A stretch of DNA of 64,000 nt from Fuerstiella marisgermanici. GTDB lineage: Bacteria > Planctomycetota > Planctomycetia > Planctomycetales > Planctomycetaceae. A program made the position numbers and the translations under genes. This document shows positions 30,634 through 64,000 of this stretch, piece after piece. Below the pieces are notes generated by a model, which ran no database searches, was not told the DNA's origin, and was given only the letters and a program-made list of their open reading frames with translations. Location: assembly GCF_001983935.1 (NCBI RefSeq), contig NZ_CP017641.1, positions 2,108,001 through 2,172,000 of the forward strand. The letters are read 5' to 3'. Each line of letters begins with the position of its first letter. Positions within the stretch are counted from its first letter, which is position 1.

Positions 30634-31131
30634 GGCGCGGGGCTTCAGGAACGGTTCAAGTCTAACTCAGTTAGTTCTGTACTCTGTGACATTTACTTTG
30701 TCGGCGACCAACGGGTGGTTGTCCGAGCGGCAGTTCCGGAAATTTGGCCGGAGTCTTGCTGATAGTTAAGAAACGACGGTGTAATTTAGGTGTCGGATCA
30801 CTCTGCGATCCAACGCACTGTTCGGGGACCGAACAACGACAATCCGCCACTTTTTGTTCCGAAGTTTCCACGCAGCAAGGGCGGGAGTTTACACAAAAAG
30901 CGACTTTCTGCACGACGAACGGCCCATCGGCGGCAGATTGTCCAAAAGGCGAGAGAATTGCAGCCTTCTCAGCCACCTCGCAGGCCCTGCCAGCCACCGG
31001 CCGAACCCGGATGCCCGACCCACCGCAAGCCCCTGACTCCGGCACGAGTATGCAGCCAGCGGAGCCGCCTTGCAGGTGCGTTTTCCTCGGCGAGATCAGA
31101 ATGCAGTCACCGCGCGACCAAAGGCTATTTG
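30634..31131. other. Gap between alaS and the accessory island
   Basis: About 500 bp. It contains small palindromes such as GTTCGG-GGA-CCGAAC near 30829 and GGATC/GATCC near 30795. A 124-codon minus frame (30671-31045) is cysteine- and proline-rich with no family match and no ribosome site. It may be dispersed repeat DNA; I see no supported gene. Confidence 0.35.
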
Positions 31132-61537: not shown

Positions 61538-62019
61538 AATACGGAACGATCCTTTGAGGCGGTGTGAGGGGGCTGCGATGAACAGACGGATACATTCACG
61601 ATACCCGCAACAACGATACACCAGCCACGGCTGGAACGACAGCGAAGGCCGGGTGAGAATTTTTCACGAGTGAATTAGGATGTTGGAACGCGGTGTTCCT
61701 GGTGAAACTCAGCTCAGTTCCTGCAACACAACCGCAGCTCGCGATTTCTGGCGAAAACCGCGACATCCCTATGAACAGGCGCCCCCGCAGTCCGTAGAAT
61801 CTTTCGCGCCGCTCAGTTCCACCGTCGGTCACGACTCGGCTTGATCAAGTCCAACAGGCCGCTCACGAAGACGACGCTGCCACGGAGCACACGACAAATG
61901 CACTTCAATCCCACCGATCAACAGTGTCACCCCGCCGTTACCTGACCGAACGGCTTCTACTCGTCGTGAACGAAACGAACAGCCAAGTGGTGCCGCGGAA
62001 CCAACTTGAAGTTCTCGGT
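61538..62019. other. Gap without supported genes
   Basis: About 480 bp upstream of the isomerase-like gene. An open plus frame (61924-62340 in part) reads through into the repeat at 62020 and has no family match. It may be debris of the mobile elements to its right. Confidence 0.35.
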
Positions 62020-62098
62020 CCGCCGTTCGGCGGTTTGTGGGAGCTTACGCTCCGAAATTGCGACCGAGCGGCAGCTCGAACAAAGTGGCGAACGCCAC
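62020..62098 (-). repeat. Four-hairpin structured repeat, copy A
   Basis: Read on minus: GTGGC-GTTC-GCCAC (62085-62098), CGAGC-TGCC-GCTCG (62065-62078), GGAGC-GTAA-GCTCC (62040-62053) and CCGCC-GAAC-GGCGG (62020-62033). Every stem is five perfect pairs. The spacing is the same as in copy B at 63483-63560. The element abuts a maturase fragment. Confidence 0.8.
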
Positions 62099-62330
62099 CT
62101 CACCGGCCGCAGCTGGGGTGTTTCGATGAAACGTCGTTTGAGCGAACTGCGAAGCTATCTTCGCGGCCGGGCGGGATACTTCTGTCTGGTGATGGAGTTG
62201 AAACTGTTCGACAGACTCGATCAGTGGATCCGTCGGCGGATACGCATGTGCTTCTGGAAGCGGTGGCGACATGCTCGCACGCGCAGCCGAGAACTGATGC
62301 GGTTAGGATTGTCTCGCCGCCAGGCGACAC
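62099..62330 (+). pseudogene. 3' fragment of a group II intron reverse transcriptase/maturase
   Basis: The frame reads LTGRSWGVSM then KRRLSELRSYLRGRAGYF, KLFDRLDQWIRRRIRM and RSRELMRLGLS. This is the C-terminal end of LtrA-like proteins, where the consensus has GVSM....L..YLRGW.GYF, LD.WIRRRLR and LGL. The reverse-transcriptase domains (YADD) and the rest of the X domain are absent, so it is a remnant of about 75 residues. It begins right after repeat copy A and runs into an IS110 fragment in another frame. Confidence 0.75.
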
Positions 62331-62477
62331 AATCCCGTGATTCGCGATTTCGCCGACCGGCTCGAAGCTCAAGGCAATCTCCCCAAAGTTATCCTCGTGG
62401 CCTGCATGAGGAAACTGCTTGTCATCCTCAACACCATGGTCAAAACAAAGACTCCCTGGAATCTGAGATCCGCGTGA
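62319..62477 (+). pseudogene. C-terminal fragment of an IS110-family transposase
   Basis: A frame reading RHNPVIRDFADRLEAQG, then PKVILVACMRKLLVILNTM and KTKTPWN, stops at TGA 62475-62477. IS110 transposases end with N.P.I..FY.RL...GKP.KVAL.ACMRKLL.ILN.M...G.PW. Only the last ~52 residues remain. It is joined to the maturase fragment in a different frame, so one remnant has landed in or recombined with the other. Confidence 0.8.
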
Positions 62478-62526
62478 GAAAGACTTGAAAATGAACACAG
62501 CCGCTTACCCGATTTCGGCCCACACG

Positions 62527-62979
62527 TCATTCGTCTTCGATCGCTTTTCCTTTGATCGTCTTGACACCTTCCCGTTTGATCAACGCAAACTGGTATGCGA
62601 ATTCGGTAGGGTTGAGGAAGCCAATCAAAGTCGATTCGTAAATCAGTTTCAGATCACTTTTATCGTCAATAGCAGGGATCACGCTGATCTGGTTGAGATC
62701 ATCGTTTGCGGCTACAAGGACGATCGCCTCTTTAAAATTTACCGACGGCGCCTTTTCAGTGGCTCGCCATGCCTTCCACAGCCTTTCCCATGTCTTCCCG
62801 TCAGTAACGTAACCTCGCTTCGGAGCTTCTTTGCGTAACTCCATTCTCACTTCACCTTGCCAAGACACCACAACAGGTACGCTTTTGGTCTTCGCCAGTG
62901 GGTGCCAATACGCGGGAGGGCCGGTCAACACCGCAAAAGTCATTGCAAGTACCACGGAGGCAGGCCAAGGCAGTCGCAT
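62527..62979 (-). CDS. Small exported hypothetical protein
   Basis: 150 residues with a signal peptide (~1-22, ending TGPPA). The mature part is one alpha/beta domain: VPVVVSWQGEVRMEL, DGKTWERLWKAW, NFKEAIVLVAAN and a basic end. It recalls PrcB-like or protease-inhibitor-type small domains, but the match is loose. It is the only intact gene amid mobile-element debris (62020-64000). Start is ATG 62979. Confidence 0.7.
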   Translation of the reverse strand: MRLPWPASVVLAMTFAVLTGPPAYWHPLAKTKSVPVVVSWQGEVRMELRKEAPKRGYVTDGKTWERLWKAWRATEKAPSVNFKEAIVLVAANDDLNQISVIPAIDDKSDLKLIYESTLIGFLNPTEFAYQFALIKREGVKTIKGKAIEDE

Positions 62980-63089
62980 TGATTTCTTCCTTTACGTGAT
63001 GACTTTGAGGCCGAACGCCGACGATCACGGGATTGTGACGAGCGACGTTGATTTGAAAATTCGGGGTGATATACAGTTTCCGTGCACCG

Positions 63090-63482
63090 TTTTGGGTACG
63101 CCTGGCATGGCGTGTGTTTTATGGGGTGTGAGTCCCCTGTACGAGAATGGAGGTCTTGTGGACTAATGGTATCGCCATCGAACTACATGAATCAAGTACG
63201 AGACGAGGGCAACTGTGGGGAGGAAGCCTGCGAATGCGCCGTCAAGCTGACTCTCAACAGTCGTCGTCAGCCGCATTCTCGTCAAAGCTGCGAGCCACCA
63301 TTGGTGATTGAAATTCTACGAACAGAAATCGGATACAAGGCCGGTACGGACAGGTGAGTGAGCCCATCCTCACGAAACCCGCCCCAAATAACTAACACCG
63401 CGTTCATCCGCATTGGTAAATCCGGAGGTGCGAGCCGCACGGGCGAATTCCTGTGCCGCAAAAGTCACACGTCTTATCCAGG
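63090..63482 (+). other. Group II intron 5' RNA-like region (candidate)
   Basis: GGGGTG-TGA-GTCCCC at 63123-63137 is a hairpin resembling one common near the 5' end of bacterial group II introns, and the following GGAGGAAGCCTGCGAATGCGCC-type text (63218-63242, not contiguous as quoted) resembles domain I. No maturase follows: after 63711 no reverse transcriptase frame opens. It is probably a fragment. Confidence 0.35.
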
Positions 63483-63560
63483 GCGGCACGGCCGCTTTAT
63501 TCAAGCTGCCGCTCGGATGGCACTTCGGAGCGGAAGCTCCAACAAACCACCGAATGGTGG
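63483..63560 (+). repeat. Four-hairpin structured repeat, copy B
   Basis: GCGGC-ACG-GCCGC (63483-63495), C-AAGC-TGCC-GCTC-G (63502-63515, one A-C mismatch), GGAGC-GGAA-GCTCC (63527-63540) and CCACC-GAAT-GGTGG (63547-63560). It is inverted relative to copy A and differs from it by compensatory changes in two stems. Confidence 0.8.
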
Positions 63561-64000
63561 CCAGGGAGATCCGTCGTTCGTATCTGTCAGAAGAGCTTGC
63601 TCAAAGGCAGAGCGATTCGTGGTCAACACGTTTCGTGATCGACGGAAGTCAGCAGAGGTCGTAGTACTGTCTCGTCAAACGCCACTGACGACAGGAAGGA
63701 CCGAACTTTGAAGAACAAGGACGAGCACTCGCTGATCTCGAACCGAGGGGGAACGTCTGCTCAGCAGATGGTTCCCGTGCTCCGACCGGAGCGAACCGGT
63801 TTGGCGGTTAGTGTCCTGCCAGCCTTGAGGGCGTTTATTGTGACCGTCTTGTCTTCGGACAACTCTGACGCAGAGCTTGCGTCTCTTCAGGGAACCGCCT
63901 GGTGGGCGAGTAGGATGGCGTCTTTCGGGTTTAGGATGCGGTTTGTGTTCCCTGTTGGCCACCCGTTTCCTCTGGTGGTGTCACAATATTTTATCCGTGT
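63561..64000. other. Window end, no supported gene
   Basis: About 440 bp. Frames on both strands are Arg-rich and match no family. GAACGTCTGCT-CAGCAGATGGTTC at 63750-63772 forms an imperfect hairpin. Possibly more intron-like or repeat DNA, cut by the window edge. Confidence 0.3.

Follow-up and report, generated by a model that had tools for sequence, protein, structure and literature searches.

Four-hairpin repeats in group II intron fragments of Fuerstiella marisgermanici, candidate REPIN-like mobile elements

Two copies of a short repeat with four successive hairpins, here called A and B, stand in opposite orientation within a 64,000-nt stretch of the Fuerstiella marisgermanici genome (contig NZ_CP017641.1, positions 2,108,001–2,172,000; hereafter the window). 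What kind of sequence are they, and how did they come to lie where they do? The initial annotation, which described the paired copies and their compensatory stem changes, was incomplete on two points: it missed the inverted pairing of units within each copy and the group II intron fragments around them.

Anatomy of A and B and their host introns

Both elements are present with the four successive hairpins (H1–H4) first described (Table 1), and they fold better than shuffled sequence. On both strands, the stability of A and B lies at z −3.2 to −4.2 relative to dinucleotide-preserving shuffles, of which 0 or 1 of 200 per strand is as stable as the element. The inverted pair was also recovered independently, as a 77-nt match with 79% complementarity. 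On the strand read from H1 to H4, the minimum fold of the single sequence pairs H2 with H4 instead of forming four hairpins.

Table 1. Elements A and B and the surrounding intron features, in window positions. Model R2 has 7 rows and model R1 has 25, with A and B included in both, and the scores of A and B to either model are by construction.
Feature	Position	Strand	Remark
Group II intron maturase fragment, left of A	61936–62019	plus	aligned to L013 1369–1759
Element A, full four-hairpin element	62020–62098	minus	90.2 bits to model R2, by construction
A, H1	62085–62098	minus	
A, H2	62065–62078	minus	
A, H3	62040–62053	minus	
A, H4	62020–62033	minus	
Group II intron maturase fragment with X (GIIM) domain, right of A	62099–62327	plus	PF08388, 4e-14
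5′ part of related group II intron (D1–D4 RNA and maturase gene start), interrupted by B	63102–63789	plus	
Group II D1–D4 RNA	63316–63427		Rfam RF02001
CCAGGG, left copy of direct repeat flanking B	63478–63483	plus	last G also pairs in H1
Element B, full four-hairpin element	63483–63560	plus	97.1 bits to model R2, by construction
B, H1	63483–63495	plus	
B, H2	63502–63515	plus	
B, H3	63527–63540	plus	
B, H4	63547–63560	plus	
CCAGGG, right copy of direct repeat flanking B	63561–63566	plus	
Group II D1–D4 RNA	63611–63701		Rfam RF01998

H3–H4 is an inverted relative of H1–H2, so that two 41-nt units of two hairpins each, joined tail to tail, make up an element: read on the opposite strand, H4 and H3 of A and B form the same unit as H1, linker and H2. 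The unit is laid out as [GCGGC-nnn-GCCGC]-TTTGTTC-[GAGC-TNNC-GCTC]G in an element of ~80 bp, whose terminal inverted repeats are the two units, inverted relatives that differ at outer stem pairs. Half elements consisting of H1, a linker (for example TTTGTTC) and H2 with the core GAGCTNNCGCTC occur at many loci of related genomes. The H1 loop has 4 nt in A and 3 nt in B, so covariation in H1 requires a one-base alignment gap, and one pair of H2 is broken (A.C) in B.

Fragments of a single group II intron type surround both A and B. B is extra DNA inserted in a group II intron and flanked by a 6-bp direct repeat, CCAGGG; three uninterrupted copies of the related intron in the same genome (L013, L014 and L015) are identical at the insertion site, where the uninterrupted sequence has a single CCAGGG (L013 337–342). 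A 6-bp direct repeat at the spacing of B is found at 27 of 62,000 window positions. At A, the 79 nt of the element replace exactly 78 nt of the intact maturase gene, encoding FCVRGRYFRIRLSDKSLQRFKRRIRE, and the reading frame shifts. There is no clear target duplication at A.

In the related genome G046, a full element (L128) splits a related intron at the CCAGGG where B also lies. The two may be one ancestral insertion, and B is 76% identical to each of the elements in L128, L126 and L125a. From B rightward to the maturase start, the fragment matches the resident intron at 136 of 141 positions and the G046 intron at 115 of 141, whereas the next 80 columns past the maturase start match the G046 intron at 68 and the resident intron at 52. 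Close to the element, the 40 columns to the right favour L013 (38/39) over L128 (27/39), and in the 40 columns to the left the two are level (30/34 each). By these alignments the intron fragment carrying B is a mosaic; either this position received B in a separate insertion, or recombination between introns took place around an insertion that was already there.

Two different group II introns apparently lie tail to tail at several places in the genome (L013, L014, L015 and L016; Rfam was run on L013, L016, L018 and L024), and at the window's edge (63893–64000) the last 109 bases match the same tail-to-tail junction region at 99%. The stretch between the two intron fragments of Table 1 is bracketed by a 17-nt inverted repeat (94%; 62325–62341 and 63024–63040) and contains a 150-aa ORF on the minus strand (62527–62979), with a weak Pfam match to DUF2491 (E 0.0015, below the cut-off).

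Copies and insertion sites in related genomes

In the 8.92-Mb genome, searches brought up no strong copy besides A and B: BLAST with A and a pattern search allowing up to three mismatches each returned two. With the unit covariance model, scored on 150 of 8806 own-genome candidates, the four units of A and B reach 43–51 bits and the next match 27.7 bits. Sixteen weaker own-genome matches carry the H2 core, exactly in 15 and with one mismatch in 1, and 12 of them continue, within two mismatches, into CCCGTTGGTCRCT, a module that A and B lack. A 1.2-Mb sample of the genome contains 5 exact H2 matches (two with the CCCGTTGGTCRCT module) against 0–4 in five Markov controls; no other exact H2 cores in it stand inverted to each other at 300 nt or less. 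Elsewhere in the window, on the minus strand at 30703–30737, an H2-type hairpin with one mismatch is followed by CCCGTTGGTCGCC and is likely a diverged unit of the host. Since A and B are closer to the full elements of genus g14 than to the host's diverged version, they probably arrived with the intron.

When 170 genomes of the family were searched with A, 12 matched, the own genome included. Full elements, at 71–97 bits, number two in the own genome and five in genus g14 among these 170, of which 23 are listed once weaker matches are counted. Nine of the 11 relatives matched by A (all except G001 and G008) hold, at E ≤ 0.01, at least 46 (G017), 31 (G150), 29 (G151), 25 (G016), 8 (G058), 6 (G045), 5 (G047), 4 (G044) and 2 (G046) units. 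The 2 elements in F. marisgermanici, against up to 46 units in G017, do not amount to the high copy number of REPs. In a sample of the phylum, 1 of 392 genomes matched, the own one (E ≤ 1e-4), a count that reflects strict filters and 16 candidates per genome and does not establish absence elsewhere. An exact 22-nt pattern occurs in 2 genome contigs, both from named planctomycetes; there were no matches to a composite pattern among viral contigs, to B among the plasmids compared or to the L128 element among the phages compared. In G150 and G151, elements of ~290 bp bounded by inverted units (L135 3534–3824 and L137 3870–4160) occupy apparently matching sites, with central parts that by eye are in opposite orientation, which suggests inversion between the units.

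Six of the seven full elements lie in mobile-element sequence. Besides those in group II introns, G045 has one in an IS91-type transposase gene and one in the adjoining tyrosine recombinase gene, and in G044 an element interrupts an IS630-type transposase gene; the seventh (L127) is accompanied by two ORFs with no Pfam match. We take Pfam HTH_32/DDE_3 to denote IS630-type genes and IstB_IS21 to denote IS21; the matches to HTH_32 and Zn_Tnp_IS91 score under the respective cut-offs. Among the shorter copies in genus g14 that were placed by Pfam (all but L130 and L132), two are in an istB gene, one between its two frames and one at its start, L131 abuts a truncated intron maturase gene, and L125c interrupts an IS91-type gene.

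Comparison with element-free relatives identifies L125b as a second insertion with a 6–7 bp repeat, CTGGGG(C) being present on both sides relative to the 82%-identical L198. The repeat is 3 bp (CGG) for L126 against L193 and L194, and 3–4 bp for L125a against L198 (an alignment of L125a with another relative, L197, extended 14 bases inside the element and was set aside). At L125c it is about 1 base, and the second half is degenerate. Duplications of at least 6 bp are found only at B/L128 and L125b, and lengths vary from 3 to 7 bp, with L127 left out.

Covariation and folding

Both compensatory changes reported between A and B are real (H1, T-A in A and C-G in B; H4, G-C in A and A-T in B). In the seven full elements, 95.0% of 140 cells are paired and 5 pairs are changed on both sides, values that 0 of 500 shuffles reach. 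The count of further pair types is ordinary (118/500 shuffles), and sliding the partners in this alignment lowers pairing to 30–49%. Among 65 distinct units from 12 genomes (alignment A4, in which 76 matches gave 65 distinct rows), 96.1% of 519 cells are paired, with 40 cells changed on both sides, 1 on one side and 20 unpaired. Here 0 of 500 shuffles reach the score or the percentage, 21 of 500 the number of covarying pairs and 309 of 500 the count of pair types, which is again ordinary; for both sets these shuffles overstate independence, the sequences being related. Stem changes that break pairing as often as they preserve it were not seen in this larger set. H1 alternates between GC-first and CG-first forms, and its inner pair varies among G-C, C-G, T-A and A-T. 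The GTAA and GGAA loops first taken for GNRA tetraloops fit that pattern by coincidence: read on the H3 strand, 13 of the 65 distinct unit loops fit.

A single long cruciform (H1:H4 plus H2:H3) was rejected, as pairing across the units shows no covariation in the seven full elements (score 0.038, against 0.043 for shuffles). In 6 of 7 elements the two units differ at outer positions, which disrupts four outer cross pairs. Energy-based consensus folding prefers the H2:H3 stem, so in the cell either the local hairpins or H2:H3 may form.

Known systems and candidate modes of origin

In anatomy, REPINs are the closest known kind. They are described as inverted pairs of palindromic units with compensatory hairpin changes (PMC3116915). 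A and B have in common with REPINs and BIMEs the inverted, short palindromic units, the short spacer and hairpins kept by compensatory change (PMC3116915). Unlike these, they have two hairpins per unit, lack both a GT[AG]G foot beside H2 and a RAYT gene linked to the units, show target duplication at part of the sites, and amount to only two strong copies in this genome, neither of which is extragenic. REP dimers tagged with GTAG or CGTC, including RPE-4 and RPE-6 of Rickettsia, are likewise reported to be oppositely oriented, some of unlike partners and some inside genes (PMC3733652); the present elements differ in that the tags are absent beside H2 and that most full elements sit in mobile-element sequence. 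The class 3 TnpAY1 genes, mainly of planctomycetes, are associated with atypical REP-like structures without GT[AG]G and with a 5′ foot CnGA (PMC6006769). Compared by description, those structures and ours are alike planctomycete, atypical and not of the GTAG kind, whereas no linked class 3 gene is shown here.

The view that the repeat matches no known REP class agrees with foot tests on the 65 distinct units. None has GT[AG]G or CGTC before H2; on the other strand at H2, where 3 bases are seen, none ends in TAG or TGG and 1 ends in GTC; and before H1, GT[AG]G occurs in 3 of 65 and CGTC in none. 'Target site' and 'duplicat' are absent from PMC3733652 and 'target site duplication' from PMC6006769, and PMC3116915 contains 'target site' once. 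A literature search with the H2 sequence returned only a zebrafish paper; searches on planctomycete repeats and on REPs with group II introns gave, by titles and abstract starts, none describing this family, and a search on palindromic elements with target duplication gave no paper. Bacterial miniature palindromic repeats, their inverted pairing and their insertion into dispensable sequence are already known patterns. It is less usual for a two-hairpin unit, heterodimers with local hairpins kept but cross-pairing lost, and target duplication to occur together.

We consider A and B to be, with reasonable probability, copies of a non-autonomous, REPIN-like miniature mobile element of ~80 bp. A transposase supplied in trans would recognise two folded ends, each unit folding as two small hairpins and not as one long palindrome. 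The target would be cut with a short stagger after GG and the element then inserted, the staggered double-strand cut being suggested by the target duplications of 6 bp or more at two sites. Copies may accumulate in other mobile elements because such genes can be spared, or because the repeat is carried along within them. The missing foot, the lack of Y1 linkage and the target duplications set the element apart from REPs, and the class 3 Y1 proteins are still a candidate for its enzyme. Against the mobile-element reading stand the mere two copies in this genome, the near-equal exchange of 79 nt for 78 at A, and the fact that no autonomous partner came up in searches aimed at the repeat itself.

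A possible but on the whole unlikely alternative is a MITE moved by the DDE transposase of an insertion sequence with unit-like ends. Small size, absence of coding capacity, inverted ends of ~40 nt and, for some insertions, a directly repeated target are features of MITEs, and the 6–7 bp duplications at B and L125b fit. Here, however, the ends are hairpin pairs with covarying stems, duplication length ranges from 3 to 7 bp with none clear at A or L125c, and no parent insertion sequence with such ends came up in searches aimed at the repeat itself. Hairpins that are kept while their stem sequence changes are unusual for DDE transposon ends.

More doubtful is the reading that these are REPIN-like, target-duplicating elements of a new family. 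Their two-hairpin ends would be kept as heterodimers and so avoid a long palindrome, an enzyme other than a RAYT would move them, and sites within other mobile elements would be preferred. The matches to the right of B, together with B being no closer to L128 than to other elements, would then mean that two genera acquired separate insertions at one CCAGGG site of a single intron type.

It is improbable that the elements are true REPINs, moved as single-stranded DNA by a RAYT (Y1/HUH) enzyme and carrying a non-GTAG foot. The inverted units with compensatory changes fit REPINs (PMC3116915), and class 3 structures without GT[AG]G provide a precedent (PMC6006769). The genome does contain the RAYT-type genes that the initial annotation proposed to look for, with 9 Y1_Tnp matches, but they are not linked to the repeat. 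Across 38 Y1_Tnp loci (30 of the 38 matches in relatives plus 8 of the 9 own-genome matches), a unit lies beside 1, in G150, just under 300 bp upstream, where 0.23 are expected from density, leaving RAYT linkage unsupported. G016, a draft genome that is 90% complete, has 25 units and no Y1_Tnp match. Target duplications such as those observed are not expected of the IS200/IS605 mechanism. Separately, a Y1_Tnp (RAYT-like) gene lies about 4.5 kb past the window's end (L024 10432–10956), with no unit within about 1.5 kb of it.

Equally improbable, in our judgement, is that the covariation records hairpin-templated repair of quasi-palindromes instead of selection acting on a folded molecule. The two arms of a palindrome in DNA can change in concert, and in the H1-to-H2 reading A.C mismatches outnumber G.U (9 against 3 in H1, 3 against 0 in H2; H1 counts use 60 of the 65 rows, with 28 and 16 distinct H1 sequences, some off register). 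H2, however, is almost fixed while H1 changes, with 99.1% of its cells paired and a variable loop, and the cross-unit pairing is not restored although it too is palindromic. The selection on folded RNA or single-stranded DNA proposed at the outset is supported to the extent that stems stay paired in the larger copy set; for RNA the A.C excess leaves such selection unsupported, and repair could also give paired changes.

An RNA element that regulates genes, as a terminator or mRNA hairpin, is very improbable. H1 followed by TTT resembles a terminator stem, and 20 of the 34 other units, compared by ORF overlap without a Pfam scan, overlap no ORF of at least 120 aa. Yet A falls within a maturase gene whose frame is shifted and B within intron RNA, the elements match no Rfam family at gathering score and overlap no Rfam match, and G.U pairs are not in excess on the one strand read from H1 to H2. 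That the repeat belongs natively to the folded RNA of the group II intron, as its presence twice in one intron type and at the same site in another genus (L128) might suggest, is refuted as a general account and has next to no probability, given the three intact same-genome copies without B, the position of A in protein-coding sequence and the other elements in IS91- and IS630-type genes.

REPs and REPINs occur commonly in bacteria, with their mode of movement not yet settled. A related repeat for which element-free sites can be recovered, some of them with target duplications, and whose hairpins are kept locally offers a test case for the mobilising enzyme and for the recognition of folded DNA. 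As small repeats nested in larger mobile elements, such sequences could be carried between genera.
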